Made by a program: the position numbers and the translations under genes
Shown here: piece after piece, positions 18,825 through 41,676 of the stretch
Position numbering within the stretch: the stretch's first letter is position 1
How the letters are laid out: the number at the start of each line of letters is the position of its first letter
Assembly: GCA_020523905.1 (NCBI GenBank)
Contig: JAJAPZ010000007.1
Span: 1-64,000 of the forward strand
Reading direction: 5' to 3'
DNA length: 64,000 bases
Source of the DNA: Candidatus Obscuribacterium magneticum
GTDB taxonomy: Bacteria > Elusimicrobiota > Elusimicrobia > F11
Notes under the pieces: generated by a model
What the model was told of the DNA's origin: nothing
Database searches by the model: none
Seen by the model: only the letters and a program-made list of their open reading frames with translations

Positions 18825-19407
18825 ACGATTGTTTGCGATACTGTGCGTCTTGGCCTTGTGTTTGGCGGGCGGACATGTGAGGGCCGGCGAGACAGGGGAG
18901 GCCCCCTATGGAGACGCTGTCCCCAGCCTTTCGCCCATGGGAGAAGCGACCGCCTCCCTATTTGACCGTGTGCTTGGCCGCAAGGGGGAGGCAGCCAACA
19001 TCAATTACCTGGTCGTTGAACTTCATCAACACGGGCCCGGCCATGCGTCTTTGCGATCGGCGCTTGTCCCCGGTTGGGGGCAGATCTTCAATCAACAACC
19101 CGGGAAGGGAACCCTGTTTTTTGTGACCTTTTCGGCGGCTCTGGCGGGCAGTATCACCACGTATCATGACGCTCGACAGAAATATGCGGATTACCAGGAC
19201 CAGGGACAGAAGAATAATTCCCTTTTCGAAGATTACGAAAACAGAAGGACCCAATCTTTTATTTTAGGCGGCGCCGCCGCCCTTCTCTGGGGTGTCTCGA
19301 TCGTCGACGCCTATCAACACGGGTATTCGCCGCTCTGGTCCGGTTCAAACATTCAGTTGGCGGTTGATTCGGAGGGTGCCGGGGTGATGTGGAGGAGGAG
19401 ATTTTGA
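18814..19407 (+). CDS. DUF5683-like membrane-associated protein
   Basis: This 197-residue protein has a signal peptide (LFAILCVLALCLAGGHVRA) and the segment SLRSALVPGWGQIFNQQPGK near residue 70. That segment resembles the DUF5683 motif (LPGWGQ-x-YN). Two hydrophobic segments follow, before and after a charged YENRR stretch. DUF5683 proteins are of unknown function. ATG 18814 lies 11 bases inside the previous gene, and the stop overlaps the next start, so it belongs to the same operon. Confidence 0.6.
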   Translation: MSSRRLFAILCVLALCLAGGHVRAGETGEAPYGDAVPSLSPMGEATASLFDRVLGRKGEAANINYLVVELHQHGPGHASLRSALVPGWGQIFNQQPGKGTLFFVTFSAALAGSITTYHDARQKYADYQDQGQKNNSLFEDYENRRTQSFILGGAAALLWGVSIVDAYQHGYSPLWSGSNIQLAVDSEGAGVMWRRRF

Positions 19408-20267
19408 CGGCCCACGAACGTTATTTAACATACGGGATTTGCGTTGTTTTTTTGCTTTTCTTCGGATGTCATAAAAAGGATCGATTGAGTGAGAATACCT
19501 ATACGCTGGCCATTGATCCGCCGGCGGTGGCGGTTGTTAAAGAAGGGTCCCAGACCTTCACCGCGCGCGCCGTGTCCGCCGCCGGGAATTTCAATGTCAG
19601 TCCGACCTGGTCCGTTTCCCCGCCCGCCATGGATTTTTTGAGTTCTCATATCGGAAATCCCGTCATCTTTCAGCCCACGGAACTGGGGGACGCGGTGATT
19701 ACCGCCACCTTTGAAGGGACCCAGGCGAACGCTCAGGTGGCGGTCGTCACGTATCAACCGAACAGCAACACCTTTGATGTCTACACCGATCTTTTACCGA
19801 CGGGAGCGGATATCGACAGCGATATTTTTCTCTTTTCCGGGAATATAACCGTCACCGAAATGACGTCGGGCTATACGCCGCAGGGCGTGAAATACCAGAG
19901 GGCGGTCCCCTCAATCTCAGGGGCTTTTTGGGGCGTGACATTGGATAAGGTTGCCCTTGGCAAGAGCAAGAATCTTCAAGAATTTTCGAGCGGGAGTTTG
20001 GAATTTTCCATTCGGCTCAGCCGTCAGTTGACAACCGATGGGGTCAATATTTTTATAAATAACATTGCCGGTTCAACGGGGACCGTCGTGTTGGCGTCGA
20101 GTCACAACTTTCTCAATACCGTTTCGGATGATTGGCAGGAGGTCTCCATTCCCATTTCAGAATTCGCAATTGATACGAGTTTCATCAAAGTTCCGTTTGG
20201 AATCAAAATAGACCCGTTAGTCAGTTCGTTGACCTTTGACGTTGATGCGGTCCGATGGCAAAAATGA
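19404..20267 (+). CDS. Lipoprotein with Ig-like and CBM-like domains, paralogue 4
   Basis: A 287-residue lipoprotein has a signal ending FLLFFGC. A BIG2-like Ig domain follows (LAIDPPAVAVVKEGSQTFTARAVS, with SPTWSVSPP). A jelly-roll domain starting TFDVYTDLLPTG ends in VDAVRWQK. This BIG-CBM pairing and the TFDVYTD opening recur in the 1310-residue protein at 29506 (TFNVYSD). I chose TTG 19404, which overlaps the previous stop (TTGA) and has GGAGGAGGAG just upstream; GTG 19389 would add five residues. It is the last gene before a new promoter. Confidence 0.65.
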   Translation: MTAHERYLTYGICVVFLLFFGCHKKDRLSENTYTLAIDPPAVAVVKEGSQTFTARAVSAAGNFNVSPTWSVSPPAMDFLSSHIGNPVIFQPTELGDAVITATFEGTQANAQVAVVTYQPNSNTFDVYTDLLPTGADIDSDIFLFSGNITVTEMTSGYTPQGVKYQRAVPSISGAFWGVTLDKVALGKSKNLQEFSSGSLEFSIRLSRQLTTDGVNIFINNIAGSTGTVVLASSHNFLNTVSDDWQEVSIPISEFAIDTSFIKVPFGIKIDPLVSSLTFDVDAVRWQK

Positions 20268-25128: not shown

Positions 25129-25183
25129 AGGATTGGATTGGGATGGAATGTCCCAATGTCGAAGTTGTTTAAGGGAGCAGGAT

Positions 25184-26185
25184 ATGGCTCGGGAAAGCGG
25201 TGTCGAACATAGATACGTCTCCCAATCCAACGGCTTGAAATCGCTTTGTCTTTTCGGAGCGATGCTTCTCTTCTGGCCTGGCCTTTCCCGGGCGGCTTTT
25301 CAGGAAAACCTTTGGGGCGCCCGGCCCGCCAGTCTGGCCGGCGCTTTCACCGCCCTGGCCGATGATGCAAATGCCCCCGTTTACAATCCCGCCGGCATCA
25401 GCCTCACGACGAACAACGAAATTACCCTCATGTACGCCCGCCTGTATTCGGGCCTAAAACTCTACGCCGGCGATAACGACACCTCCCGTTTGGGACTTGG
25501 ATTTTTCAGCTACGTCCCGCAAATTGCGGAAAAACGGTTCGGGAGTTATGGTTTCAGCTGGACCAATTTTACCGCCACCAACCTTTATCGCGAGGACACC
25601 TTTTCACTCACTGTTGCGGATTCCTACCAATTCGATCAATTGTCAGTCAGACCCATTCTATCCTACGGCGCCAATGTGAAGCTTTTGCGGCGGTCCTTTT
25701 CCACGGACGTCCGGACCGATCAAGACGCTGTGTTTCAGAACGGGCGGGACTCGACAGCTTTCACTTTCGATGTGGGACTGATCGCCCAGCCACGATTCTC
25801 GCTTTTACCGGGATTGAAAATCGGGATGGCCGCCCAAAATGTGACGGAACCCGATATCGGGTTGGCCTCCACCGACCGCGTGCCGGCGCGCTATAGCTTC
25901 GGCCTGGCTTACGAGGACCGGCGTTTCCGGTATTTCAATCCCGCGATCGATGTATCCCGCCGGCGGGGGCGGACGCTTGTCTCGGCGGCGTGGGAAGGAT
26001 GGGTGGCCGGGGATACCCTGGCTCTTCGCCTCGGTGGAAACGCCGATCAGTTGGCGGGCGGCATCGGATACCGATTTCGTCTTTCTCGTCAGGTCACGGT
26101 TGGATTGGACTATTCCATTCAGTGGCCGTTTAACGTGGAAGGGACGGATGGAACCCACCGGGTGTCCATCACAACGAATTTTTAG
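25184..26185 (+). CDS. PorV/UPF0164-like outer-membrane protein
   Basis: A protein of about 333 residues has a signal peptide (SLCLFGAMLLFWPGLSRA). The mature start is FQENLWGARPASLAGAFTALADDANAPVYNPAGI, the hallmark opening of the PorV/UPF0164 and FadL-like barrel group. Barrel-like strands run to the C-terminal FNVEGTDGTHRVSITTNF, which ends in an aromatic residue. PorV is a shuttle component of type IX secretion in Bacteroidota, but the wider family has other or unknown roles. ATG 25184 has GGGAGCAGG upstream; an in-frame ATG at 25133 is possible but lies against the operator. It is preceded by the TTAA repeat array. Confidence 0.72.
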   Translation: MARESGVEHRYVSQSNGLKSLCLFGAMLLFWPGLSRAAFQENLWGARPASLAGAFTALADDANAPVYNPAGISLTTNNEITLMYARLYSGLKLYAGDNDTSRLGLGFFSYVPQIAEKRFGSYGFSWTNFTATNLYREDTFSLTVADSYQFDQLSVRPILSYGANVKLLRRSFSTDVRTDQDAVFQNGRDSTAFTFDVGLIAQPRFSLLPGLKIGMAAQNVTEPDIGLASTDRVPARYSFGLAYEDRRFRYFNPAIDVSRRRGRTLVSAAWEGWVAGDTLALRLGGNADQLAGGIGYRFRLSRQVTVGLDYSIQWPFNVEGTDGTHRVSITTNF

Positions 26186-26291
26186 TCTGACAAAGGAGGG
26201 CTAAAAAACATGCATGAAGCACCATGGTTAATGAACGGACACTCCCCTCGGCTGTCCTCTCTAAACAGCTCGATTAGGAGTGAAGTGCCTC

Positions 26292-26353
26292 GCTGGCCGG
26301 AAAACGCGCCAGCTCGGGGTCACATCGCTGAACTTAGCTGGGGTGCTTTCCGG
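26292..26353 (+). promoter_or_regulatory. Structured 5' leader with alternative hairpins
   Basis: The 227-base gap 26186-26412 contains nested pairings: CCGGAAA (26297-26303) with TTTCCGG (26347-26353), and inside it CCAGCT (26309-26314) with AGCTGG (26336-26341). A competing hairpin GCTGGC (26292-26297) with GCCAGC (26308-26313) uses the same bases, so the two folds exclude each other. The gene at 26413 follows with an AAAGGAG site. No known riboswitch consensus was recognised. Confidence 0.4.
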
Positions 26354-26412
26354 TCACAACGTGATGAATCATGCAAAATTAAACGGGGAGAAATCCCTAA
26401 AGGAGTACGACA

Positions 26413-27264
26413 ATGAAGAAAACAAGAGTCATTGTGTTGGCTGCCCTTGTCTGCGCGGTGGGACTCATAACTGCGCCGGCATCGGCGGCCTTCACGAGCT
26501 TACAGACGGCTGTGTCGTCAGCGGTCGTGTCTGTTGGAGGATCGCCGACGGTCAGCTTTTCGTTGGCGCTTCGTGTCCTCACGTCAACGACGACACCCAA
26601 GACCATCATCGACTGGGGTGCTGTTAATGCGGGGACGGGATGGAAAGTCTCATCGACGACCATCATGCTCGATTATTCGGTTACGAATGGGGCGGGTGGC
26701 ATCCAACTCTACACAAACAATAAATCGGCGGGTGGGACTACACTCTATCCCCGGTTTTTTGATCCGACGACAGATCCAAATCCCAATGACATAGCGAACC
26801 ACAACCTGGATTCAAATCCGGCCGGGTTGCTATGGAGTAGCGGTTTGGCGACCTCGTCTCGGACGTTGTCCATGGCTTGGACGATCAAGACGAGCACCAA
26901 GGTTGTGGAGTTGAGTGATCCTGTGAATGGCCTCGGGGCTTCGGATCCGACGTCAGGTCCGATCTCGGGTTATAACAACAGGTTCCAATGGGTGTTTATG
27001 CGTGACAAGCAAACACCGGCCATTGACTTCAACGGCAACGGTACTTGGCCCGATCCCGGTACCGGTGAAGATGCGTTTGTGGATGGCGAAGCAGGTTCCA
27101 CCATCGCCGACAGCAATGGTGTCCACTACGGCCAGGCTCCGACTGAATTCACGGGGCCCAATACCGGCCGAGCGTGGATCTATCTCCAGGCCAGCTTCAA
27201 CACGGCCTTGGCGGGAGCCACGTATCGGACAAACACGGTCACTGTTGAGTCCTTCACTGAGTAA
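26413..27264 (+). CDS. Small secreted subunit-like protein
   Basis: This 283-residue protein has a signal peptide (VIVLAALVCAVGLITAPASAA). The mature protein is Ser/Thr/Gly-rich and strand-rich. Its second half shares an ordered set of motifs with the C-terminus of the 1310-residue protein at 29506: GGIQLYTNN near 95, HNLDSNPAGLL near 130, FQWVFMRD near 190, NGVHYGQAP near 236 and WIYLQASF near 255. No named family is recognised. AAAGGAG precedes the start. A hairpin with a T-run follows the stop, and a chaperone-like gene comes next. A secreted fibre or surface-layer subunit is my best reading. Confidence 0.55.
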   Translation: MKKTRVIVLAALVCAVGLITAPASAAFTSLQTAVSSAVVSVGGSPTVSFSLALRVLTSTTTPKTIIDWGAVNAGTGWKVSSTTIMLDYSVTNGAGGIQLYTNNKSAGGTTLYPRFFDPTTDPNPNDIANHNLDSNPAGLLWSSGLATSSRTLSMAWTIKTSTKVVELSDPVNGLGASDPTSGPISGYNNRFQWVFMRDKQTPAIDFNGNGTWPDPGTGEDAFVDGEAGSTIADSNGVHYGQAPTEFTGPNTGRAWIYLQASFNTALAGATYRTNTVTVESFTE

Positions 27265-27274
27265 CTGATCGCTG

Positions 27275-27301
27275 AACAGACGTCTGTTTGGGAGTTTTTT
27301 T
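27275..27301 (+). terminator. Palindrome plus T-run after the small secreted protein
   Basis: AACAGACGTCTGTT (27275-27288) is a perfect palindrome that can form a 5-bp stem with a 4-base loop. It is followed by TGGGAG and seven T (27295-27301). The short stem suggests a partial terminator that would leave the first gene expressed above the ones downstream. Confidence 0.45.
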
Positions 27302-27316
27302 AGGGGCAACGAGAGG

Positions 27317-27333
27317 CGGGAGGAGCCCTCCCG
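27317..27333 (+). other. Second hairpin in the same gap
   Basis: CGGGAGG (27317-27323) pairs with CCTCCCG (27327-27333) around a 3-base loop, 16 bases after the T-run. It may stabilise the upstream message end or the downstream message start. The chaperone-like gene begins 52 bases later, with GAGGAGG just before its ATG. Confidence 0.35.
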
Positions 27334-27384
27334 GCTTCTCCCCCTCTCTTGCCTTGCCTCCCAACCCGGCGCCGAGGAGGAGAC

Positions 27385-28167
27385 ATGAAACGAATGCGGA
27401 GCTTGAGATTTTGGCTGCTTTGCGGGCTCAGCATGGCGGGCGTTCGTCCGCTGGCAATCTTCGCGATTCAAGTCACGCCGGGCTACCAGGTGATTACCGT
27501 GGCGCCCGGCCAGAAGGCAAAAGTACAGGTGACACTGACCAACACGGAGCCGAACGAATGTAAAGTCTCTCCGGATGTCAAGAACTGGTTTGTCTTGCCG
27601 GCCAACGAAAGCATTAAGGTCGCCGATTGGTTAAAGGTCGTCAAGACTCCTTTTGTGCTTAAACCCGGCCAGACGAAGACCCTGACCTACACAGCCCTGG
27701 CCCCCAAAAATGCCGTCGGTGAACTGGTGGGGATGGCCACTTTCCTGACGGAAGGCCCCGTCGTGCAGACGGTTAATTTGCAGATCAGCGTGGCGATCTA
27801 TGTGGCGGTCAAGGGAACGGAGAAATTCAGCGGAACCGTTGATTCCATTGAGATCATCCCTTCCGATGGTTCCCTAAGAGTTGCCGTCCTCATGAAAAAC
27901 ACGGGCAATGTGCATTTGAGGCTTCGGGGCTTTGTGAGAGTCTGCAACGAATCAGATGTTCCCGTGGTGATGGTGCAAATACCGCCGGGCCGTCCCATTT
28001 ACCCCGGTCGGGATAAAGCGCTGATGGGCGAAGCGAAGGATGCCGTGTTAAACCCCGGCCTTTATATTGTGGATGCTTCTTTTACAGATGAGATCCGTTA
28101 TATGGAAATTTCGACGGACAAAAAGACGTTCAAATTGGAAGGAAAGGAGAAAGTGGTGGTGAAGTAA
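27385..28167 (+). CDS. Fimbrial-chaperone-like secreted protein
   Basis: This 260-residue protein has a hydrophobic signal region. Two Ig-like domains follow. The first carries TPGYQVITVAPGQKAKVQVTLTNTEPNECKVS and a later FVLKPGQTKTLTYTALAPKNAVGELVG. The second begins KFSGTVDSIEIIPSDGSLRVAVLMKNTGNVHL. The layout resembles pilus-assembly chaperones and DUF916-like proteins, though family membership was not confirmed. ATG 27385 has GAGGAGG upstream; an earlier in-frame start at 27349 lacks one. Its place between a secreted subunit and large secreted proteins fits a periplasmic assembly factor. Confidence 0.55.
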   Translation: MKRMRSLRFWLLCGLSMAGVRPLAIFAIQVTPGYQVITVAPGQKAKVQVTLTNTEPNECKVSPDVKNWFVLPANESIKVADWLKVVKTPFVLKPGQTKTLTYTALAPKNAVGELVGMATFLTEGPVVQTVNLQISVAIYVAVKGTEKFSGTVDSIEIIPSDGSLRVAVLMKNTGNVHLRLRGFVRVCNESDVPVVMVQIPPGRPIYPGRDKALMGEAKDAVLNPGLYIVDASFTDEIRYMEISTDKKTFKLEGKEKVVVK

Positions 28168-28180
28168 ACCATCGTCGCTT

Positions 28181-29494
28181 ATGATGCGGAGTCGACGGCT
28201 TCATCGAAGTTTGGTGTGGGCGGTTGGACTGGCCCTCTTTCTTTTGTGCGCGGGAGGGCTGGTGCGGGCCTTTTTGTTTGCTTTCACCAGCGTCCACACC
28301 GAGACCCTGACCGCGGAGGTCTTTATTCGAGAAATCCCTAAGCCGGTCGTCCTTCTGCACACGGTTTTGCGTCGAATATCCCCGGTCACTCACCTGGCGA
28401 TTATTCAAGGGGAAGCCGGCACCAATCCCCGGAATATCCGCATCGCGTTCCCTTCCCGGATTACCGCGGCTTCGAAACGGCCGGCGGCGGCGGGGGATCA
28501 GATTCGGGTGACGGTGTCCTTCAAGATGGTCGGGCCGGGAGAGGAGGAGTCCAGCATCCCTTTAAGTGAGCTTCCTCCCGTGATTGGCCCGGACCCCCTC
28601 GCCTTTGCCTTCCAGGTTCCCGCCAGTTCTATTACCACAGGACAATTCCTTTACAAGATAAGGGCAGAAAGGCTTAAGGATTATGGGTTTGGTTGGGAGT
28701 CGGTCACCGAAACCTGGTATCCGGTTGAGGCCGTCACAAGCACCCGGGCTTACGTCAATGTGGGTATTACAGCCGCGGCCAGTGAGGTGCTCGGCCCTCA
28801 AGGAGGCCGCGTCGTGGTGAATAACGGGAATCCCAATGTCGGGATGACGGCCCTCGATATCCCAGCGGGACTATTACCCACACTGACGACGGTCAATTTG
28901 GATGAACTGGCCGCAACGGATCCGCAGGTCCCGTCGCCGAACGCCTACGTAGGGCCTTTTGCGGTTTACCATCTTGATCTCGGCCCGACGTTTCGGGGGT
29001 ATATGAACCTCTCCCTTTTGTACCCCGATTTTATGTTCCCGGAGGGGCAGCGGGGATTGTTCGACGGCACGGAGATTACGGAAGGCTTGGCGTCAATTGC
29101 CTGGTGGGACGGTTTCAAGTGGCGCCTCGTCGGCGGGAAGGCGGATCCCAACACGAATTTGGTGAGCGTCCGCATCAGCAAAGCCGGCTTGTATGCAGTC
29201 GTGGCCGCGGCGGGGGCCACGCCTCCCGAACGCCGGCCGGCTGAGAAAATCATTACGCCGAATGGAGACGGCATGAACGACACCGCCCAATTCTTTTTCA
29301 ACGATTTGTTTGACAACATTAAGGTTGATATTTTTGATGTTTCCGGCCATCGCGTCCGGACGATGATGAGCAATGAGACCTCGGAATGGGATGGCCGGGA
29401 TGAATCCGGGAAAATCGTGGAGAGCGGCGTTTATATTTATCAATATACGGTCGAAGGAGAACGCGTCAGCGGCGTCATCGCCGTGGCGAAATAA
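28181..29494 (+). CDS. Secreted protein with FlgD/CHU_C-like C-terminal domain
   Basis: This 437-residue protein has an N-terminal membrane or signal segment (VWAVGLALFLLCAGGLVRAFLFAF). A central strand-rich region includes GPQGGRVVVNNGNPNVGMTALDIPAG. The last 80 residues read IITPNGDGMNDTAQFFFND, then KVDIFDVSGHRVRTM, WDGRDESGKIVESGVYIYQY and a final GVIAVAK. This matches FlgD Ig-like and gliding-motility-associated (CHU_C) C-terminal domains, which act as sorting or anchoring modules in Bacteroidota. A sorting role here is inference. It starts 13 bases after the chaperone-like gene and 11 before the large protein. Confidence 0.65.
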   Translation: MMRSRRLHRSLVWAVGLALFLLCAGGLVRAFLFAFTSVHTETLTAEVFIREIPKPVVLLHTVLRRISPVTHLAIIQGEAGTNPRNIRIAFPSRITAASKRPAAAGDQIRVTVSFKMVGPGEEESSIPLSELPPVIGPDPLAFAFQVPASSITTGQFLYKIRAERLKDYGFGWESVTETWYPVEAVTSTRAYVNVGITAAASEVLGPQGGRVVVNNGNPNVGMTALDIPAGLLPTLTTVNLDELAATDPQVPSPNAYVGPFAVYHLDLGPTFRGYMNLSLLYPDFMFPEGQRGLFDGTEITEGLASIAWWDGFKWRLVGGKADPNTNLVSVRISKAGLYAVVAAAGATPPERRPAEKIITPNGDGMNDTAQFFFNDLFDNIKVDIFDVSGHRVRTMMSNETSEWDGRDESGKIVESGVYIYQYTVEGERVSGVIAVAK

Positions 29495-29505
29495 ATCGAA
29501 GATTT

Positions 29506-32500
29506 ATGAATAGAATCGCGCGAAAAATCCCAGGACTATTCTTTTTCGGGATATTCCAGGCTGCATCATTATTTGCTGTGGCGACAATGGAATACACGAC
29601 AGACCTGGGCCCGATTAATGTTTCCACATTCACCTATGGACAATGGGGCACGATAACCGTCAACCAAGATTTTGCCGCGTCGGATGCTCCTGAAGGCATT
29701 AAAGTTCAACAAAATGTTGTTGGTGCCGGCGGTGGTGGATGGTATTTATTGAACACAGTCGGATGGAATGATTGGAATGTCGTGTTACGTGACTTTTCGG
29801 CGTATGATCGTATCCGTTTTTGGTTAAAAAGTAGCGCTGCCGTGGCGATCGAAATTGAGTACCAGACGGGTGCGTCACCTGTGAATGTTTCATCTTCCAT
29901 CGCGAGCACAGGCAATACGTGGAGGGAATTTATTATTCCGCTAGGCACGGGGGGATTCGGCCTCACTCTCGTTCAGATGCAAAATATTCGAGCTCCGTTC
30001 AAGTTTACGTCAGCAGCTGCGGGGACATGGTACATAGATCATGTGCGCTGGACCAAACCTCTCACCAACATTCTTTTCTATCCTACGAGCACGCAGGTCA
30101 ACCCAAACCGTCACCGGCAGTTCACGGTGGAAGGGCGCAATACCACCAACGAGCTGGTCATCGTTTATCCGCAATTTCCGGCTACCAGCGCGGGGACGAT
30201 TGCGGGGACGATTGGTGCGACGGGCAAAAGCCGCTCCATTGTTTTGACCGCCTCCGGTGCCAGCGGAAACATCACCGCCTCGGATAGCGGCATTAACCGA
30301 ACGGCCGGTGTCACGATCACCTCAAACAATCTCGACAGCACCTTTGGGCTTTTAAGCGAGACGATTCCCGGAGCGATCATCGATACCGATTCCAAATTGT
30401 TCATGGAAAACAGTGCGGATGCCAGACAGGTGGAGGTCTTTGACGAAATCAATAGCGACAATCGGGAGGGCCTAAAAAGGTTTAAGACAATCGTCCATCC
30501 CGCCATTACGCCCGGTTCGACAAATTGGACCGGGTGGTTTATCCAGTGGGGCTTTGACGGATCCTCCACGACGACGGTGGACATGTCTAATTATTACGAC
30601 GGTTCAATTCGATTCTGGTTCAAAGGTCCGCCGGCGTTGGCCACAAAACTTGAGGTGGGCGTCCGTTCCAGCAACGTTCCCGAAGGATCCCTGTCCAAAA
30701 CGTTGTTGCGCAATTATGTGGCGTTCGATAATGTGTGGCGTCCCGTCGTCATTCCCATTTCTCTGTTTGCGAAGCCTCCCCCCTATGCCGATCTTTCGAG
30801 AATCAAGGTTTTGTTCAGCGTGTTTGCCTTGGGGGACACCGGTTTGACGGATCAAACCTTTTATATCGATAACTTAAGGTGGGATACGCGGATCCCCGGT
30901 CCGGTGGCGTCTGTGACGGTGAGCCCTTCTTCGACGACCATCCCCACCAATGCCTCCCGTCAGTTTGTCGCCTCTGCCGTCGATGCCGCGAACGTCTCCG
31001 TCGACATGTCAAGTCCCATATGGAATTTGGGGAATGCGTGCTTGGGCACACTCGTCCCCAAAGGCCCGACGGCCATTTTGAACAGCGGTGTGTCCCTCTG
31101 TCACAGTATGATTACCGTTTCATCCAATGCAGTGTCGGCCACCAGTGATGTGACGATCATTGACTATGTCCCAACGCAAACGTTTAACGTTTATTCTGAT
31201 GCGGGAGCTGGTGGAGGAGTCGGCGTCGCCCATAATCCGGAAACCTCCTTTGGCCTCTCCGAACCGAATGATGGAACGGCGCCGGAAGGTGTCAAGTTCA
31301 TGCGTTCGACCTACACGCTGGTTAATACACCGGGTCAAACCAATGCCTACGGTTTGTGGTTTGTTGAATCGGTGAATTTTCCTCAGTTTATGTCTTTCTA
31401 CTCCCCCAGCGATAACGGCTATCTCCAATTTTATGTTCGATCCAGCAAGGATCTGACGGCCGGAATCCGGTCCAATAATATCGCCGCAGGAACGGAACGA
31501 TCGAAGGTGACCATGAGCGAGTTGGGCCTTGTCTTGGATGGGGTCACGTGGAATAAAGTATTTATATCCATGGATTTTTTCGCCCGTCTGGAACCTCTTC
31601 TGGACTTCAGCCAAATCAAGACATTCTTCTATATAGGCCCCCTGGTGAATCAAGCGGGGCTCACGCCCGATCAGCAATTTGACGTGGACAATGTGAAATG
31701 GATGACGAACAGTCCCCGTCAACCCGACGTCAACAAGGTCTATCAAGGATTGGTGGTCAAGCAAGAGCCGTCGGGACTCGTTCGTTCTTATGATGCCTTG
31801 CCTCAATCCGTGACGTATGACAATGCCATCGCCGCCATGAATTTCACCTATCGGAAAGATCTGTACAAAGCCCAGGCGGTGTTCAATGTCTATAAGGCGA
31901 AATATGGCGTCGGCGGGGGATTTGCCGGTTTTCATGATGAGTATGATGTCACGGCCCCCGGCGTCATTCTGGATGCGGATCGCCTGGCCGGCCCCAATGC
32001 TTGGATGCTCCTGGCCCTGGAGCATTATCGGAGCGTGACGAGCTCGACCACCTATGATGCCATGATGAATGGCATTGCCAGCTGGCTCAAGAATAATCTG
32101 CAATCGGGAGATGGCGGTGTCCAGTTCGGTTACGTAAACAACGTGCTCCAAACCAGTAAGTCAACCGAACACAATTTTGATTGTTACGCGGCCTTTAAAG
32201 CCTACGCCCGTATTTTCGGTGACACCCAATTTGATACAGCGGCCAACAACGTTTTAACCTGGTTGACAACGAATAACAAAGGCTGGAATGCGGCCGAGGG
32301 GCGATTCAACGTGGGGACAGATCCTGGGGGAAATGCCGATCCTCGGAAGGCGTTAGATGCCTATTCCTGGGCGCCCCTGGCCCTATCCGGATATTCGTCG
32401 CTCCTCCCCTTGGCAGAAGTGGATTTTTCAACGCATCACGTGTGTGATAGGACGGGGGTGGACGTCACTGGTTTTGATTTTGTCCCCCCCGCCAGCGTGA

Positions 32501-33438
32501 CGCCGGATAAAGTGGCCGTTTGGTTGGAAGGCACCGGCCAGATGGCGCTGGCTTATTTGGTTTCGGGGAGCACGCTATCATGGAGATATTATTTGCAGGA
32601 AATTGAGAAGGCCGTTTCGCCCAACTCTCCGACCAGCCAGGGCATTCCCTATGCCACCAATGCCGGCACGGGATTCGGCGGTTTCACCATGGATTCCCTG
32701 CATCCGGCGGTCAGTGCCATGGGATGGTATCTCTTCGCCAATAATCAGTTTAATCCTTTCAAGCCTGTGTCGGATATTTCTGTTGAATTACGAAATATAT
32801 CGAACGACCAACTGACCAACACCATTGGTTGGACGGTTTCGGCTCCCGCCGGCTGGACACGCGCCGATCAATACATACTCCTCCGGGCCAATCCCGTCTC
32901 CTGGGACCCTTGGGGGGTCCAAATTTACACGGATAATCAAAACGGATCACACCCCATACGGTATGTGGATCCCACCTCCGGAGACCCCCATAACATTGAC
33001 TCCGACCCGGCCGGCCTGCTTCTATATATCGTGGGACATTCAACGACGAGTACGAAGCTTTCCCTGGCTTGGAGCATTAATGATTTGAAAATCCAGGGAC
33101 CACTTTCGGTGGACATGGATGCTTGCCCTCGAAGCCCCGCCTTTTACCAATGGAATATGATGAGAGATTATTCCAGCCCCTCTCTTGTTTTGGACGGGCG
33201 ATGCGGGGGAGTGACCTCCACAACGGCTTTCGCCAGAGATGGGGATTTTGATTCCTCTCTTTTGCTTCACCAGGTAACGTTCAGTGGTCATATCTACGAT
33301 GGCATTCACTATTTACAAGGGCCCAGTTTCTCTACCTCGTATCCCCCCGATTACATTTTTCTCCAAGCCAATTTTGGGTCCGCCGCGGCCCAGTCGAATT
33401 ACCAAGCCCCCATCATCATCGAGTATTACAGCCAGTAG
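29506..33438 (+). CDS. Large secreted multidomain carbohydrate-binding / alpha-toroid protein
   Basis: This 1310-residue protein has a signal peptide (LFFFGIFQAASLFAVA). It carries three jelly-roll (CBM-like) domains at about 30-190, 275-465 and 555-735. The last two are preceded by BIG2-like Ig segments such as VTVSPSSTTIPTNASRQFVAS. Residues about 745-1085 look like an (alpha/alpha)6 toroid of the kind found in some glycosidases (GGFAGFHDEYDV, STEHNFDCYAAFKAYARIF, AVWLEGTGQMALAYL). The last 220 residues match the small secreted protein at 26413. The first domain of the 19404 lipoprotein pair is also related. An adhesin or surface enzyme carried on a fibre is the best inference. Catalytic residues are not proven. 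Confidence 0.65.
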   Translation: MNRIARKIPGLFFFGIFQAASLFAVATMEYTTDLGPINVSTFTYGQWGTITVNQDFAASDAPEGIKVQQNVVGAGGGGWYLLNTVGWNDWNVVLRDFSAYDRIRFWLKSSAAVAIEIEYQTGASPVNVSSSIASTGNTWREFIIPLGTGGFGLTLVQMQNIRAPFKFTSAAAGTWYIDHVRWTKPLTNILFYPTSTQVNPNRHRQFTVEGRNTTNELVIVYPQFPATSAGTIAGTIGATGKSRSIVLTASGASGNITASDSGINRTAGVTITSNNLDSTFGLLSETIPGAIIDTDSKLFMENSADARQVEVFDEINSDNREGLKRFKTIVHPAITPGSTNWTGWFIQWGFDGSSTTTVDMSNYYDGSIRFWFKGPPALATKLEVGVRSSNVPEGSLSKTLLRNYVAFDNVWRPVVIPISLFAKPPPYADLSRIKVLFSVFALGDTGLTDQTFYIDNLRWDTRIPGPVASVTVSPSSTTIPTNASRQFVASAVDAANVSVDMSSPIWNLGNACLGTLVPKGPTAILNSGVSLCHSMITVSSNAVSATSDVTIIDYVPTQTFNVYSDAGAGGGVGVAHNPETSFGLSEPNDGTAPEGVKFMRSTYTLVNTPGQTNAYGLWFVESVNFPQFMSFYSPSDNGYLQFYVRSSKDLTAGIRSNNIAAGTERSKVTMSELGLVLDGVTWNKVFISMDFFARLEPLLDFSQIKTFFYIGPLVNQAGLTPDQQFDVDNVKWMTNSPRQPDVNKVYQGLVVKQEPSGLVRSYDALPQSVTYDNAIAAMNFTYRKDLYKAQAVFNVYKAKYGVGGGFAGFHDEYDVTAPGVILDADRLAGPNAWMLLALEHYRSVTSSTTYDAMMNGIASWLKNNLQSGDGGVQFGYVNNVLQTSKSTEHNFDCYAAFKAYARIFGDTQFDTAANNVLTWLTTNNKGWNAAEGRFNVGTDPGGNADPRKALDAYSWAPLALSGYSSLLPLAEVDFSTHHVCDRTGVDVTGFDFVPPASVTPDKVAVWLEGTGQMALAYLVSGSTLSWRYYLQEIEKAVSPNSPTSQGIPYATNAGTGFGGFTMDSLHPAVSAMGWYLFANNQFNPFKPVSDISVELRNISNDQLTNTIGWTVSAPAGWTRADQYILLRANPVSWDPWGVQIYTDNQNGSHPIRYVDPTSGDPHNIDSDPAGLLLYIVGHSTTSTKLSLAWSINDLKIQGPLSVDMDACPRSPAFYQWNMMRDYSSPSLVLDGRCGGVTSTTAFARDGDFDSSLLLHQVTFSGHIYDGIHYLQGPSFSTSYPPDYIFLQANFGSAAAQSNYQAPIIIEYYSQ

Positions 33439-35433: not shown

Positions 35434-35844
35434 TTGAATCGAAAGAGCCGCGGAAACACCACGGTCGAATTTCTTTTCGCCTTCCTCCTCCTTATAATAT
35501 TGTGTTTGGGCGTTCTGGATTTATCTCTCCTGAGCCTGGAGCAATTTCGATTGGAGAGATTTTGCCAGAAAACCGCGCGTGACTTGACGCTTTCTTCCCT
35601 TTTTGACGAAGAACAAATGCGGCGGGCCGTTGATGAAAAGTTGCGCGCGGCCGAGCTTGCCGGTGTCACCTATCAGCTGTTGATCCGGCCTCTTCCCACC
35701 CTTTCGGGCTCCTCTCCTTTGCGAAGCGTAAAGTCTGTGTTTGTTGTCGAATTGGAAATGAGGCGCCAGGGGAGGCTCCGGTTTCTCAAGAACCCCGTTG
35801 TATTAGGAGCCCGGTCATGGGAAGCCGGATTTTGGGATCAATGA
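35434..35844 (+). CDS. TadE-like pseudopilin
   Basis: This 136-residue protein starts RKSRGNTTVEFLFAFLLLIILCLGVLDL, a short basic leader followed by GxxxVEF and one hydrophobic helix, as in TadE-family minor pseudopilins. These are cleaved by a prepilin peptidase and join the Tad pilus machine. The start is TTG 35434 with AAAAGGA upstream. The stop overlaps the next gene (ATGA). Confidence 0.8.
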   Translation: MNRKSRGNTTVEFLFAFLLLIILCLGVLDLSLLSLEQFRLERFCQKTARDLTLSSLFDEEQMRRAVDEKLRAAELAGVTYQLLIRPLPTLSGSSPLRSVKSVFVVELEMRRQGRLRFLKNPVVLGARSWEAGFWDQ

Positions 35845-36629
35845 AACGGGAAAGAGGCCAGGTCCTCATTATGATGCTGTTCGTCAGCGGCCTCCTCTTT
35901 GGGGTGACGTTTTTGGTCTTCAATGTGGCGCGGGCGCACTACCGTCTTGCACGGGCGCAGTCTCTGGCGGATAGCACCTTGATATCGTCATTACGGATTC
36001 GGATCGATGGGCTGGCAAAAATAGCCGAACGATGGGGATCCATTCAATCGTTGTTTTTAAGGGGGGATGACGAGGGGGGAACGGTCCTCGCCGCTCATTG
36101 GCCCGCATTGGAAGAGCAGGCCCGCACGCTGGAACGCGCCCTGCCGGGTTACAAGGGGCGCATCCGGTCCGTCGTCAGCGTGGTGGCTGAAGCCCAAGAC
36201 GAAATGCGGGAGAGCGTCAATATAATCAAGGAAGACGGGTCGTTTCTCGGCGTATCGCCGGAAGCTCTTCAAATTTGTGATGAGAGTGGCCGTACGAGCA
36301 TCATGCGGTCCATCTGGTATCGACGGTTGTGGGCATTGGAGGATGGCGGAGGCGAACCCCAGGAAAGAAGCGTCCATGAAGTGACTCAAACGGTCCCCTT
36401 ATTGACAGGTGGCGGCCTTGATGAGAGGCCCTGGATTCTGAAGGCTTTTGCAAGCGGGCGGGTCGTGGGAGATGTCAATCTTAATCATCCCGTTGTTCAA
36501 AGCCTGGGGAATGGCGGTTTTCCCAGGGTGTGGCCGGAGACCCTTGTCGATGGCCGGGTGGATCCCTTTCGTTATCCGTATTATCGAGCCCGATTGGATG
36601 GCGGTGTGTTTGACTTGGGTTTGCCGTGA
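35841..36629 (+). CDS. TadG-like pilus assembly protein
   Basis: A 262-residue protein opens KRERGQVLIMMLFVSGLLFGVTFLVFNVARA, the Tad-type GQ-x-hydrophobic helix of TadG-like proteins. A long periplasmic domain follows without recognised motifs. It lacks the usual von Willebrand factor domain of full TadG, which makes this a short form. It overlaps both the TadE-like gene before it and the gene after it, so the three are translated together. Confidence 0.65.
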   Translation: MKRERGQVLIMMLFVSGLLFGVTFLVFNVARAHYRLARAQSLADSTLISSLRIRIDGLAKIAERWGSIQSLFLRGDDEGGTVLAAHWPALEEQARTLERALPGYKGRIRSVVSVVAEAQDEMRESVNIIKEDGSFLGVSPEALQICDESGRTSIMRSIWYRRLWALEDGGGEPQERSVHEVTQTVPLLTGGGLDERPWILKAFASGRVVGDVNLNHPVVQSLGNGGFPRVWPETLVDGRVDPFRYPYYRARLDGGVFDLGLP

Positions 36630-37036
36630 GGAAAAACGGTCCTCTTCAAGGAGGTGCCTTGGTTGAATTGGTCTTGGGAATGTGGATTTTCGCTTTTTTT
36701 ATTGGAGCTTTGGTCGCTTCCTCCCGCCTTTATCTTTTGAAGATCCGCTTGCATTCGGTCGCCCGCTTGGGGACGACACTGCAGGGCCTTGCGCTGGTTG
36801 ATGAAGGGGTCATTCAATCCGAGGTCAATGATTATTTATCAAGACAGACTCGTTTTCCCCTTGTCTCGGCCGATATCGTCATGGGCCGGTTTTTAGGGAC
36901 ACCCTCCTCGCGGTTTTACCAGCTCACTATGACCGAGGTTCATGGGCGTTATCAGGACACGTTTTTAAAATGGCTGGGGTTGCCGGAGGTGGCTTTTTCG
37001 GAAAGGACGGTCGTTCAAAAGGAGGGAAATCCATGA
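36626..37036 (+). CDS. Second TadE-like pseudopilin
   Basis: A 136-residue protein begins RKNGPLQGGALVELVLGMWIFAFFIGALVASSRLY. The G-x-LVELV pattern and single N-terminal helix match TadE-like proteins. It starts with GTG 36626, overlapping the previous stop (GTGA), and its own stop overlaps cpaB. The C-terminal part is soluble and strand-rich. It probably forms a minor subunit complex with the two preceding proteins. Confidence 0.7.
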   Translation: MRKNGPLQGGALVELVLGMWIFAFFIGALVASSRLYLLKIRLHSVARLGTTLQGLALVDEGVIQSEVNDYLSRQTRFPLVSADIVMGRFLGTPSSRFYQLTMTEVHGRYQDTFLKWLGLPEVAFSERTVVQKEGNP

Positions 37037-37776
37037 GTCCAAAAGTCCGGTTGTTGGCCTCGTTAATCGGCGGGATCGTGTTGGGTGCGGTCATTTGGTT
37101 GTATTTGGATCATACAGAAAAGAAGATGCATTCCCGGTTTAAAATGGCCACGGTTATGACGGCCCGGCGTTATATCGCCGCCGGGAAGCTCATCACTCCG
37201 GAGCTTGTTGAGGAAACGAGCGTCCCTGCGGCTTTCATTCAACCGCGGGCCTTTTTGGGACGGACAGAGCTCTTGGACAAAAAGAATAAACCCCGCTATC
37301 AAGCCGGGTTGGGCCTCTTGAAAGGAGAACAGTTGACACGGTCGAAGATCCGCGATGTCGAATCGGCTGAAGGATTGTCGTGGGTGATCCCGGAAGGGAA
37401 CACGGCACAGACCCTCCGCTTGTCGTTGGAGCAAGCCGTCGGCGGCCTCCTTCAGCCGGGTGATTTTGTCGATGTGCTGTGGACGGGACGGCTTGAACGC
37501 GGGATCGGGCGCACCTTCTGTCTTTTCCAAAAAATACGGGTGTTGGCCGTCGAAGATCAGATTTGGAATCCAGACCGGGTGGGTTACGAAAAGATTCTTT
37601 TGAAAAGAATGCAAACGGAAAATATCTTAGTTACACTTTGTTTGGCGCCGCGGGATTCGGCTCTTCTGGCATTGGCCAAGGAAGAAGGCCGCGTTAGCTT
37701 GGCGCTGACATCCCCGTTGGATAACACGACGCACGAAATACCACCCGTGGGTGGCGGAGACTTGCAACCGGGTTAA
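37033..37776 (+). CDS. cpaB: CpaB/RcpC-like pilus assembly protein with SAF domain
   Basis: This 247-residue protein has an N-terminal membrane helix (LLASLIGGIVLGAVIWLYL). A SAF domain follows (VMTARRYIAAGKLITPELVEETSVPAAFIQPRAF), then a second domain with LRLSLEQAVGGLLQPGDFVDVLWTG. Both domains are typical of Flp pilus protein CpaB/RcpC, a periplasmic part of the Tad machine that works with the secretin. It overlaps the second TadE-like gene by four bases. Confidence 0.88.
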   Translation: MSPKVRLLASLIGGIVLGAVIWLYLDHTEKKMHSRFKMATVMTARRYIAAGKLITPELVEETSVPAAFIQPRAFLGRTELLDKKNKPRYQAGLGLLKGEQLTRSKIRDVESAEGLSWVIPEGNTAQTLRLSLEQAVGGLLQPGDFVDVLWTGRLERGIGRTFCLFQKIRVLAVEDQIWNPDRVGYEKILLKRMQTENILVTLCLAPRDSALLALAKEEGRVSLALTSPLDNTTHEIPPVGGGDLQPG

Positions 37777-38168
37777 TGAGCATGCCCCAAAAGATAAAGA
37801 AATACGTTGTGACGGACGAACAGATCTGTCCCCAATGCGGGACGGCGAATCCGCATCATGCCTACTGCTGTCTTAATTGTTTCAAGGTCCTGCGTGAAAA
37901 GCCGAAAGTCCCCTTTTGGAAAATGGAAATCCGGTTGGATTTGTTGATCATTGTCGCGGTTTTTGTTGTTTTCGCCGGCATGGCCCTTCTCTTCAAACAG
38001 TGGCTGACCAATGTGGAGGCGGAAGTCACCTTGAATTTGACATCGGCGGAATACAACGTTTCTGTTGTCGCGGACAAAAGGAAGCGATCCGCGTCTCTGG
38101 AATTAAAAAAAGGCGGCAACGATTCGGATTCCACCTCCACGCCCACGGACGATTCTGCCCCGAAATAA
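37776..38168 (+). CDS. Zinc-ribbon membrane protein
   Basis: This 130-residue protein has a cytoplasmic zinc ribbon near the N-terminus (CPQCGTANPHHAYCCLNCF, two CxxC-type pairs) followed by one membrane helix (LLIIVAVFVVFAGMALLF). The external tail is acidic and Ser/Thr-rich and probably disordered. I know no named Tad component with this layout. The ATG shares one base with the cpaB stop, and a second in-frame ATG lies six bases on. It occupies the place where a secretin gene often sits. Confidence 0.65.
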   Translation: MSMPQKIKKYVVTDEQICPQCGTANPHHAYCCLNCFKVLREKPKVPFWKMEIRLDLLIIVAVFVVFAGMALLFKQWLTNVEAEVTLNLTSAEYNVSVVADKRKRSASLELKKGGNDSDSTSTPTDDSAPK

Positions 38169-38210
38169 ATTGGTCGTAATACAAATCCCCTCCTATCGTA
38201 ACCAAAAGCC

Positions 38211-38281
38211 GTCATACCGGCGAAAGCCGGTATCTAGGTCTTAAGGTTCAAAGCCTGGATTCCGGCTTTCGCCGGAATGAC
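38211..38281. repeat. REP-like inverted repeat, GCGAAAGC family, copy 2
   Basis: Arms at 38211-38237 and 38255-38281 are inverted copies with a few differences. The left arm has the pair ACCGGC/GCCGGT where the right has TTCCGGC/GCCGGAA, so each keeps its own stem around GCGAAAGC. It separates the zinc-ribbon gene from the TadA-type gene. Confidence 0.9.
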
Positions 38282-38344
38282 GAATATAATGAGACTCATG
38301 ATTTACCACACTGGCGTTATTCGTTGTTGATGGGAGGTGTCCTG

Positions 38345-40246
38345 ATGTTGCCCCTGCTCATGTTTATCCGGCCGTCCTACGATGATCTTGGAAGTCTTCC
38401 CCTTTTTTGGTCTCTCGTTTTTGCGCTCAAAGAGCGGACCCCTTACGCCGCCTGCCTTGTCCCGGAAGGTCCGGCGTTTCACCGCCTCTGTCCTCGTGTT
38501 TTCACCTTTCCTTGGGCCCAATGGCAAGCTGAAGTCGAGAGCCGCCGGCGGGGACCTCCTTGTCCGGGTGACGATACCGGATTGGTTTCGGATCTCAAGG
38601 GTCGATGGAAGCCTTCGCCCAATGATGTTGTCCTCGTCCCCTATGAATCAGACGTCAAACTCGACGTCCTCCTAACCCTTTTTCCGCAGGTCTTCGGGCC
38701 GACGTTTGTCTTCCTTCGTTCCGACGATATCGACGCTCAAACAAAAGAGGCCTCCTTCGAGGCTGTTTCTTGTTATGTCCTTTTTCTGACGCCGACGTTG
38801 GACAATGTGGATGACGTGAAGCGCCTTCGGGGAAAATTACTGGCGCGGGGTGTTCTCAAGGAACGGATCCGGACGCTTCTTTTCAATGCGGGCCTCCCGG
38901 GCGCGCTCACCCAGAAGACCGTGGAAAAGGAATTGGGGGAACTCGATTTCGTCATACCGTCAGACCTATCTTTACTTCTTCGAGCTCAATCGGAGGGGCA
39001 GCCCGTTCAAACCCTGAAGCCCCGGTCTCCTTTGGCGGAGGGCGTTCGTCAGGCGGCTCAGAGGATGGCCTCTTTTTTCAATGGAGAACATCCTTCCGGT
39101 GAAAAAACATCAGCGCCGCCCATTCCTTTGGCGAACGTTAAAAAGATTGTAATAGAACGATTATGGCGACAATGGGAGGAGGAAAAAAGCCATTCAGCGG
39201 CGGGAGGGGAGACGCTTCACCGGCAGATTGATCGTGAGATCCATGACGTTTTGGTTGAGTGTCGCGTGGGCGATGTCGATCTTGAAGCCATCCAAGAAAT
39301 GCACCAGGCCGTGTTTGATCACCTGGCGGGGCTGGGGCCTTTGGAAAAGTGGCTGCGGGATGAGGCCGTCAGCGATATTATGATCAACGGCCGGGAGCGT
39401 CTCTACCTGGAAAGGGAAGGCCGGATGGAACGAACAGCAGAGACGATTGGGACGGAAGCGCAGCTCAAAGTGATGATCGACCGGATGGTCGGCCAGGCCG
39501 GGCGGCGTGTGGATAAAGCCTCCCCTTTGTGTGATGTGCGATTGAAAAATGGGTCACGCGTGAACGTGGTTTTACCTCCCATTGCGCTTCATGGGCCGGT
39601 GGTCACCGTCCGCCGGTTTCGCGCGGCCTTTATGACCTTTGAGGATTTGATCCGTCAGGGAACCTTGAAAGAGGCCCACGCCGCGCAGTTGATACGAGAC
39701 GTTCGGGGCCGTCATAATATCGTGATTGCCGGAAACAGCGGCTCCGGCAAAACAACACTGCTTAATATTCTTTCCAGTTATATCGAGGAGAACGAGCGGG
39801 TTATCACCATCGAAGATGCGGCGGAATTGAAATTGCAGCAGTCTCATGTGGTGGCGCTGGAATCGCGTCCGCCCAACGCCGAAGGGGAGGGGGAAATCAC
39901 CATGGTTGATTTGGTCGTGAACGCTCTCCGGATGCGGCCCGACCGGATCATTGTCGGAGAGTGCCGGGGCGCCGAGGCGATTCCCATGCTCCAAGCCATG
40001 AACACGGGGCACGACGGTTGCATGACGACCCTCCACGCCAATTCGGCGGAGGAGGCGCTCTGGCGCCTGGAGGCGATGGTTCTCATCGGAGCGCCCCAAT
40101 GGCCTAGTTCAGTGGTCCGGCAGCAGATCGCCTCCGCTTTGGATCTGATTGTTTATTTGAAGCGAATTGGCACCGAGAGGAGATTGACCGAAATGGTGAA
40201 GGTCCAGTATGAGGATGGGCATCTGACGGTCTCTTCAAATTTATGA
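38345..40246 (+). CDS. tadA: TadA/CpaF-type ATPase fused to a TadZ/CpaE-like N-terminal domain
   Basis: This 633-residue protein has a full TadA secretion ATPase from about residue 250 on: [20 protein letters not shown], Walker [12 protein letters not shown] near 462, Walker [13 protein letters not shown] near 531 and the His box CMTTLHANS near 557. The first 245 residues are extra. They match the later part of MinD-like TadZ/CpaE proteins ([70 protein letters not shown]) but lack a P-loop. ATG 38345 has GGGAGG seven bases upstream; earlier in-frame starts at 38324 and 38330 do not. The ATPase powers pilus assembly at the inner membrane. Confidence 0.88.
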
Positions 40247-40908
40247 TGGTCATTCTCTCTATCCTGATGGGACTCTGGGGCATGGGCCTTCTCTGGGATG
40301 CCTTTGGGGATCAGTCCGTCGACTTCTGTCGACGTGTCTTTTTTAACTTCTTGCGCTTTTTGAAAAGTTGTCGGCAGAAAAGGGTCATTAGGCGGCAGTG
40401 GCCGGATGCCGTGCAACTATTGGCCAGCGCCGTTCAAGCGGGATTTTCCATTGAAGGAGCCTTGGATGTGATGGTTCACGGGTCGCCGGACCCCTTGCGC
40501 GCTCATTGGGTTCAAAAAATCTCTGGGGCAAGCGGGTGGTTGCCTTTTGAGGCCCGGGTGCGGCTTCTTTTTGATGATCCCGGACTGTCTCTCATTCAAG
40601 CCACCCTCCTCATGGCTCATGAATCCGGCGGGAGGGCGGCCGATATCATCGAGGCCAGCGCCCGTTTGATGCGAAAAAAAATGGAGTTGAAGGAAAAGAC
40701 GAACGTGTTGACCGCCCAGGGGCGGTTGACCGCCTGGATTGTCGGACTTTCTCCCCTGGGAATGCTCGTGGCGTTGCAGGTGTTCGCTCCTGATTTGGTG
40801 CAACCTCTTTTTACGACCCGCGCCGGAGGAATGATTCTGGCCCTTGCGGCGCTACTGGTGGCGACGGGATTATTTATCGCTCATCGGATTGTCCGTATCG
40901 AGGCCTAA
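40243..40908 (+). CDS. tadB: TadB-like inner-membrane pilus platform protein
   Basis: This 221-residue protein has a hydrophobic N-terminal segment, the type II secretion F domain (RRQWPDAVQLLASAVQAGFSIEGALDVM, then LLMAHESGGRAADIIEASARLMRKKMELKEK) and two C-terminal helices. This is the usual TadB order, though the usual N-terminal region is short. It overlaps the ATPase stop (ATGA), and TadC follows nine bases after it. Confidence 0.85.
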   Translation: MMVILSILMGLWGMGLLWDAFGDQSVDFCRRVFFNFLRFLKSCRQKRVIRRQWPDAVQLLASAVQAGFSIEGALDVMVHGSPDPLRAHWVQKISGASGWLPFEARVRLLFDDPGLSLIQATLLMAHESGGRAADIIEASARLMRKKMELKEKTNVLTAQGRLTAWIVGLSPLGMLVALQVFAPDLVQPLFTTRAGGMILALAALLVATGLFIAHRIVRIEA

Positions 40909-40917
40909 GGAGAGAAG

Positions 40918-41676
40918 ATGGACGGATATTTTGAAATTATTCTGGTGTCGGCGGGGGCGGGGGTGGGCGTTCTTGCGATCCAAGCCTTTTATGATTGGCA
41001 GCGTGAAATTCACCTCCACAAGAAATGGGCGGAAGCCGGATTCAAAAAACTGAGACCTTCCTGGAACGTTAAATACAACGTGGTGGGTTTAGGCAGCATA
41101 GCCGGAGCCCTTGCATTTCTTCTTTTTCTTCCTCAGGAAACATGGCTTAGTTTGTTGGGGGGAATTTTAGGGGGCGGAGTTCCTCTTTATTATTGGCGGG
41201 AGGAGAGACGGCGGCGGCAGTGGAAAAATTATTGCGCCTTCCCCGATTTTCTGGAACTTATCGCCATGGCCTTGAGAGCCGGCCTGGTGTTGGAGAAAGC
41301 ATGGGAACTCGCTTTGCGTTATATGCCGCCTTCACCGCTCAAAGATGAGCTGGAGAAATCCTATCGTCATTTTTCTTCGGGACAGTCGAGAGACGAGCTC
41401 TTTGAGCGATTATTAAAAAGCCTCAACGATGAACGGCTGTCGCCGGCTCTGCGCTTTATCGCCCAATCGATGAGCCAGGGTCTTCCACTCCAGTCCGTCC
41501 TGTTGGAGCAAGCCGACATCCTTCGCACATCGGTCTATCTTTCTTTGGAGAAGAGGGCTCAGACGGCATCCATCCGGATGTTGTTCCCCATCGTTTTTCT
41601 AATCTTTCCCAGCCTTTTCCTCATACTTTTTGGATCGATCGCTCTCCAGTTTGCCCTACACGGCGGCCTTTTCTGA
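40918..41676 (+). CDS. tadC: TadC-like inner-membrane pilus platform protein
   Basis: This 252-residue protein has an N-terminal helix, a central pair of helices, the F domain (FPDFLELIAMALRAGLVLEKAWELAL, then LLEQADILRTSVYLSLEKRAQTASIRMLFPIV) and a C-terminal helix. It is the partner of the TadB-like protein in the Tad platform. The start has AAGGAGAG upstream. No further Tad gene follows; a repeat element ends the unit. Confidence 0.85.
   Translation: MDGYFEIILVSAGAGVGVLAIQAFYDWQREIHLHKKWAEAGFKKLRPSWNVKYNVVGLGSIAGALAFLLFLPQETWLSLLGGILGGGVPLYYWREERRRRQWKNYCAFPDFLELIAMALRAGLVLEKAWELALRYMPPSPLKDELEKSYRHFSSGQSRDELFERLLKSLNDERLSPALRFIAQSMSQGLPLQSVLLEQADILRTSVYLSLEKRAQTASIRMLFPIVFLIFPSLFLILFGSIALQFALHGGLF

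Follow-up and report, generated by a model that had tools for sequence, protein, structure and literature searches.

Several described surface systems use parts that resemble those of the locus analysed here. In chaperone-usher pili (FimH/FimA/FimC, and the archaic Csu and CupE types) a PapD-type chaperone and an outer-membrane usher are combined with subunits in a donor/acceptor layout. The type V pili of Bacteroidales (FimA/Mfa1), likewise donor-strand fibres, consist of subunit, anchor and tip and do without an usher; their subunits are made as lipoproteins that a protease matures, and they are not known to have a chaperone of their own. Usher-less donor-strand filaments are also formed by TasA and TapA in Bacillus, where TapA is the filament starter and donates an N-terminal strand only (PMC10151520). 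In the WxL clusters of Firmicutes a small protein and a larger one, which also has N-terminal binding domains, have a common C-terminal domain, and a strand of their two-domain Ig-like partner, WxLIP, is predicted to complete the WxL domain (PMC10599100). Finally, proteins with a C-terminal domain (CTD) of the type-B class of the type IX secretion system (T9SS) are held at the surface of Bacteroidota by PorP-like barrels (PMC9143113).

Here, we describe a module of five genes on the forward strand (25133-33438) that encodes an outer-membrane barrel, a subunit, a chaperone, an anchor and a tip protein, found in a window of 64,000 nucleotides from Candidatus Obscuribacterium magneticum, a MAG that is 71% complete and 13% contaminated. 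The module is real and apparently undescribed, probably a variant of the donor-strand fibre systems, and we found no description of such a system in the open-licence literature. Our main reading, to which we assign a probability of about 0.6, is that the products of the five genes assemble by donor-strand complementation into a surface fibre that binds sugars. Its chaperone would be of the WxLIP/PapD type, no usher would take part, and the anchor would only donate a strand and sit on the barrel.

The module shares parts with each of the known systems. Like chaperone-usher pili, it has a PapD-type chaperone fold, a weak likeness in the subunit fold, a tip that joins a binding domain to a subunit domain, and a putative donor/acceptor layout; unlike them, it has an anchor with a T9SS-type CTD and a barrel of its own, lacks a detectable usher, and has a chaperone whose closest relative is WxLIP. 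With the WxL clusters it has in common the small and the large protein sharing a C-terminal domain and the two-domain Ig-like partner, the nearest homologue of the chaperone, but it contains neither a WxL domain nor a transmembrane helix, and no barrel or type-B CTD has been described in those clusters. Having no usher and no WxL domain, the module is a member of neither group and would work in part like both. The TasA/TapA fibres resemble the proposed fibre in being usher-less donor-strand filaments with a donor-only starter, the role that we propose for the anchor; they are Gram-positive, have neither a two-domain chaperone nor a tip adhesin, and show no sequence family match. Type V pili offer the same usher-less combination of subunit, anchor and tip, again without any family match in the module: the Pfam profiles of the TasA/camelysin and type V pilus families matched none of 51 members.

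The four reading frames between 26413 and 33438 lie where the preliminary description had placed them, and the domain that it had proposed for both the 283-residue protein and the last ~220 residues of the 1310-residue protein is confirmed by BLASTP, which gives a single long alignment between residues 45-283 and 1087-1310 (29% identity, E=3e-17), all remaining pairings being at noise level. The five motifs listed there can be read in the same order in both proteins. In its own genome the 283-residue protein matches only itself and the C-terminus of the large protein, and an iterated profile recovers the domain in about 55 proteins of relatives, either as a subunit or at the C-terminal end of large proteins. 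The subunit (26413..27264, forward strand, as are all features below) consists of a signal peptide, an N-terminal extension and the shared domain (26545..27261), and its structure model (pLDDT 78.7, core above 90) contains a well-defined beta domain preceded by a stretch of about residues 22-42 with pLDDT below 50 in the monomer.

Neither the subunit nor the tip sequence has a match in Pfam, NCBIfam or the PDB, and Foldseek found none for the subunit model below E=0.1. In a VIA comparison, 33 of the 37 best rows were proteins that we take to be donor-strand fibre subunits (TasA-like, FimH, PapG, Caf1, CfaB, CsuA/B and CanA; Z 3.4-5.7), a result to which we give little weight because the list was preselected and because these low Z-scores are of a size reached by common sandwich folds, tied with some unrelated beta-sandwiches. 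As an internal check, the subunit and chaperone models pick, respectively, subunit chains and chaperone chains in several of the same PDB entries (1qun, 3dsn, 6k73 and 1p5u). The models weakly suggest that the predicted fold of the subunit is closest to donor-strand fibre subunits.

The N-termini give an indication of how these proteins may fit together. The mature subunit and anchor, two otherwise unrelated proteins, have similar N-terminal segments within the same locus (residues 26-44 of the subunit, 26488..26544, and residues 34-52 of the anchor, 28280..28336, in the window), as illustrated by the pairs FQSVGRSTFTAGLTTGG and FQSRGKQSFAAGLVTGG in L012, ATPVAGSARVFLASATTGG and ASPVPGSAQVFTAGVTVGG in L014, and IFRAEISFAS and LFRAEVSFEE in L065 (subunit and anchor, respectively). 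Over 19 loci, the mean score was 33.8 for the own locus against 18.3 for other loci, 16.9 for shuffled segments and 15.2 for the subunit with its own tip, with a permutation p=1e-5 that was the same when partners were permuted inside families only. Because the segment starts had been placed by hand, a second version of the test set them automatically; it gave 38.2 for the own locus versus 21.8 (p=5e-5, the lowest value that this version can reach), whereas three control windows further downstream and the comparison of subunit with tip showed no signal.

The subunit carries both the segment and the shared domain, the anchor the segment without the domain, and the tip the domain without the segment; as a sequence layout, this fits a donor-strand arrangement in most of the 19 loci. 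It is not universal, because four anchors have an acceptor-like domain fused to them and no donor segment (L055, L068, L071 and L078), the anchor of L066 has no matching segment, and in G032, L061, L062, L070b and L072 the match is little above background. The simplest reading of the sequences would be that both N-terminal segments fit the same groove. The shared domain is probably the acceptor, and the N-terminal segment, which only subunit and anchor have in common, would then probably serve as the donor strand. The earlier suggestion that the shared domain could be a polymerisation module has in this way gained a specific mechanism, with acceptor and donor probably lying in separate parts of the protein, and polymerisation is what we infer from it.

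According to the mechanism that we propose, the subunit would be exported to the periplasm, where a strand of the chaperone would complete its incomplete beta-sandwich until, during assembly, the N-terminal strand of the following subunit takes the place of the chaperone strand. The tip would lie at the far end of the fibre, as it has the acceptor domain and no donor strand, presenting its CBM-like sugar-binding domains; the anchor, having the donor strand and no acceptor domain, would end the chain at the cell, where its T9SS type-B CTD would hold it on the neighbouring outer-membrane barrel.

The chaperone (27385..28167) most likely starts at the ATG at 27385 and not at the TTG at 27349, because the latter lies inside an RNA hairpin and the corresponding ATG is the start codon in the relatives. 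The AlphaFold2 model of this 260-residue protein (pLDDT 91.3) has a two-domain Ig-like fold whose best structural match is Enterococcus faecium WxLIP (Z 14.3 and 13.8), ahead of the PapD-type chaperones SafB, FimC and Caf1M (Z ~12.4, ~180 residues); Foldseek ranks them in the same way (WxLIP, E=1.9e-10; PapD-type chaperones, E=2.4e-8 and weaker). At the sequence level, a profile of 22 chaperone relatives finds WxLIP in the PDB with E=8e-5, and four of the 22 match WxLIP_PGBD at E<0.01, the window protein staying below the curated cut-off; no chaperone matched the PapD families of Pfam. By sequence profile and predicted fold, the protein is nearest to WxLIP and then to PapD-type chaperones. An alternating hydrophobic strand is retained at the position of the donating G1 strand of PapD-type chaperones, and the site of their conserved A1-strand arginine is occupied by a basic residue in 11 of the 22 aligned chaperones, that of the window not being among them. 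In MAGs of Saccharibacteria and Chloroflexi (L057, L058 and L059), WxLIP-like genes lie next to genes for small secreted proteins, possibly another WxL-like system; kinship of those small proteins with the subunit domain was rejected by profile comparison.

The gap between the subunit and chaperone genes (27265..27384) contains the strong hairpin mentioned above (z -3.5 to -4.2). In all 11 loci the hairpin of this gap has z below -3 (median -5.4), whereas such values occur in 19 of 59 other gaps between genes on one strand (median -1.1; Mann-Whitney p=7e-5). Hairpins behind pilin genes raise the share of the subunit and, by analogy, this one fits an excess expression of the subunit. A consensus scan for an extra promoter ahead of the module gave matches at chance level.

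The anchor (28181..29494, 437 residues) has the donor-like N-terminal segment, a middle region and a C-terminal domain (29243..29491) that scores above the cut-off with both TIGR04131, the T9SS type-B model (35.8 bits, cut-off 35), and CHU_C (44.2 bits, cut-off 27; E=2e-11); the type-B model is matched by 11 of 17 anchors. Immediately upstream of the subunit gene lies the barrel gene (25133..26185), whose product is the probable partner of the anchor and which we count as a member of the module because it is linked to it across the phylum. In the window this protein reaches 29.6 bits with PorP_SprF of Pfam (cut-off 22.3) and 46.2 bits with PorV_fam of NCBIfam, below the cut-off of the latter; we call the barrels PorP/PorV/UPF0164-like because, among 15 module barrels, PorP_SprF matches only that of the window and UPF0164 matches four.

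As regards export, an outer-membrane usher (PF00577) was found in none of 17 module genomes while the E. coli control was positive, and we therefore reject usher-based assembly. Type-B adhesins of the T9SS that are paired with PorP-like barrels (SprB-SprF and PG1035-PorP) resemble the module in that a gene for a type-B CTD lies beside one for an outer-membrane barrel and in the presence of a SprA-like translocon in the phylum; they differ from it in that what is anchored here is a chaperoned subunit system and in that a PorU-type C25 peptidase is absent from 16 of the 17 genomes, the exception being the contaminated MAG of the window itself. In this MAG, one contig (C126) carries a C25 peptidase together with several CHU_C proteins and may be foreign. 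Descriptions of the T9SS usually confine it to Bacteroidota. A SprA-like protein of ~1800 residues was found in 297 of the 340 genomes of the phylum, three of them in the family of the window, and among the 191 good genomes it was found in 183; its TIGR04189 score is below the equivalog cut-off. Among the matches listed, it occurs in all of the 42 module genomes except G321 and the 71%-complete assembly of the window. A search for GldM gave no match and its positive control was equally silent; with PorU missing as well, we do not claim a full T9SS. Exit of the fibre through the SprA-like translocon of the phylum would be the likeliest route and is a reasoned guess, because PorU is missing and the SprA match is below the cut-off and absent from the own MAG. 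In several loci (L080-L084), the SprA/Sov-like gene adjoins gap, pgk and lptF/lptG-like genes.

The tip protein (29506..33438, 1310 residues) has three CBM-like domains (29617..30048, 30430..30879 and 31186..31698), followed by a strongly conserved middle region (31801..32775; 69% mean column identity among three relatives) and the shared C-terminal domain (32764..33435). The profile of the jelly-roll-like domain, of which nearly every tip examined has at least one copy ahead of the shared domain, matches entries that we take to be CBM44 (E=2.5e-9) and the CBM4 module of a xylanase (E=4e-4). The tip of L052 has F5/8 type C domains in its place, and in general the N-terminal cargo varies greatly (CBM, GH-like, F5/8 type C) around a constant C-terminal domain. 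The middle region has no PDB, Pfam or structure match; it is possible that it is an alpha/alpha-toroid glycan enzyme. Small secreted proteins with the CBM-like domain of the tip are also encoded at 17413-18144, 18144-18824 and 19389-20267 of the window, with similar ones near the module in L013, L060, L062, L073 and L077, and proteins of ~1270-1330 residues with the acceptor domain, possibly extra tips, are found on contigs away from the module in five genomes (G291, G293, G294, G295 and G297). An Elusimicrobia population with a minimal set of CBMs has been described as ~500-fold enriched on cellulose particles and probably unable to degrade cellulose (PMC7031533), and by analogy a tip that binds plant polysaccharide would fit this enrichment.

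The same run of genes recurs in many Elusimicrobiota genomes, so the gene order on which the preliminary description had staked its proposal is conserved. Among 147 relatives, a search recovered the subunit/tip pair a few kb apart in three genomes (G001, G002 and G007), and three others had one of its two members; those relatives of the locus that bear a name are MAGs of Elusimicrobia, and the loci that were read have the order of the window, from barrel through subunit, chaperone and anchor to tip. Other classes have the tip gene ahead of the anchor gene and the barrel gene last (subunit, chaperone, tip, anchor, barrel), and some of their loci have two sets or three tandem subunits. Across the phylum, the chaperone profile finds 46 of 340 genomes (27 genera), the subunit profile 48, and the two lists intersect in 42. 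A contig labelled Bacteroidales (L056) has a close copy of the module of Proruminimicrobium (Elusimicrobiota) and is probably misbinned. The four-gene interpretation proposed at the outset is partly supported and was largely right: the genes between subunit and tip do encode a pilus-chaperone-like and a CHU_C/FlgD-type protein, their roles as chaperone and anchor agree with the PapD/WxLIP-type fold and with the type-B CTD beside a barrel gene, and the CBM44 match argues for the predicted glycan-binding domains of the large protein. It was incomplete in that it noticed neither the barrel gene nor how near the chaperone is to WxLIP, nor that an usher is lacking. Directly downstream of the module, the window contains a Tad/Flp pilus locus (35434-41676) with TadE-like, RcpC/CpaB, T2SSE and two T2SSF proteins, as does G002 (L013), and from 48635 to its end at 64000 a giant reading frame, still open, of more than 5122 residues with degenerate short repeats.

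The same parts could also form a non-polymeric surface complex of the WxL kind, in which the strand of the WxLIP-type partner stays inserted and holds the small and the large protein together without any fibre. The kinship of the chaperone with WxLIP, in sequence as in fold, speaks for it, and so does the identical logic of the WxL clusters; however, no WxL domain was matched in 51 members, WxLIP has a C-terminal transmembrane helix and the chaperone of the window ends without one, and the matched donor-like N-termini, the tandem extra subunits and the hairpin behind the subunit gene all point to a repeating subunit. We regard such a complex as the main rival of the fibre, but as unlikely. Still less probable, in our opinion, is that the shared domain serves as a tag for secretion or docking, which the chaperone and a SprA/barrel exporter would recognise on the way of carbohydrate-binding proteins to the surface, with the small protein as an accessory and not a polymer. 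This would agree with the variable cargo in front of a constant C-terminal domain, with the unlinked large proteins that carry the domain and with the near universality of the SprA-like protein in the phylum, but it leaves unexplained why subunit and anchor match at their N-termini and why the tip does not.

The Tad/Flp locus downstream of the module, in the window and in one relative, could finally mean that the module supplies an adhesin to that pilus. As other genomes have the module without an adjoining Tad locus, and no Tad protein is common to both, we consider this very improbable. A donor-strand fibre remains our preferred reading. The broader claim that chaperone-assisted donor-strand fibres with usher-less export through a SprA-type translocon, a donor-only anchor on its own barrel and polysaccharide binding constitute a previously undescribed pilus pathway across Elusimicrobiota is one that we advance tentatively, as a possibility and with some doubt. 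If our main reading is true, there would be a donor-strand fibre with a PapD/WxLIP-type chaperone and no usher in a phylum of the Gram-negative type, linking three systems that have been seen as separate, namely chaperone-usher pili, Gram-positive WxL clusters and T9SS type-B anchoring, and suggesting how Elusimicrobiota may hold on to plant fibre.
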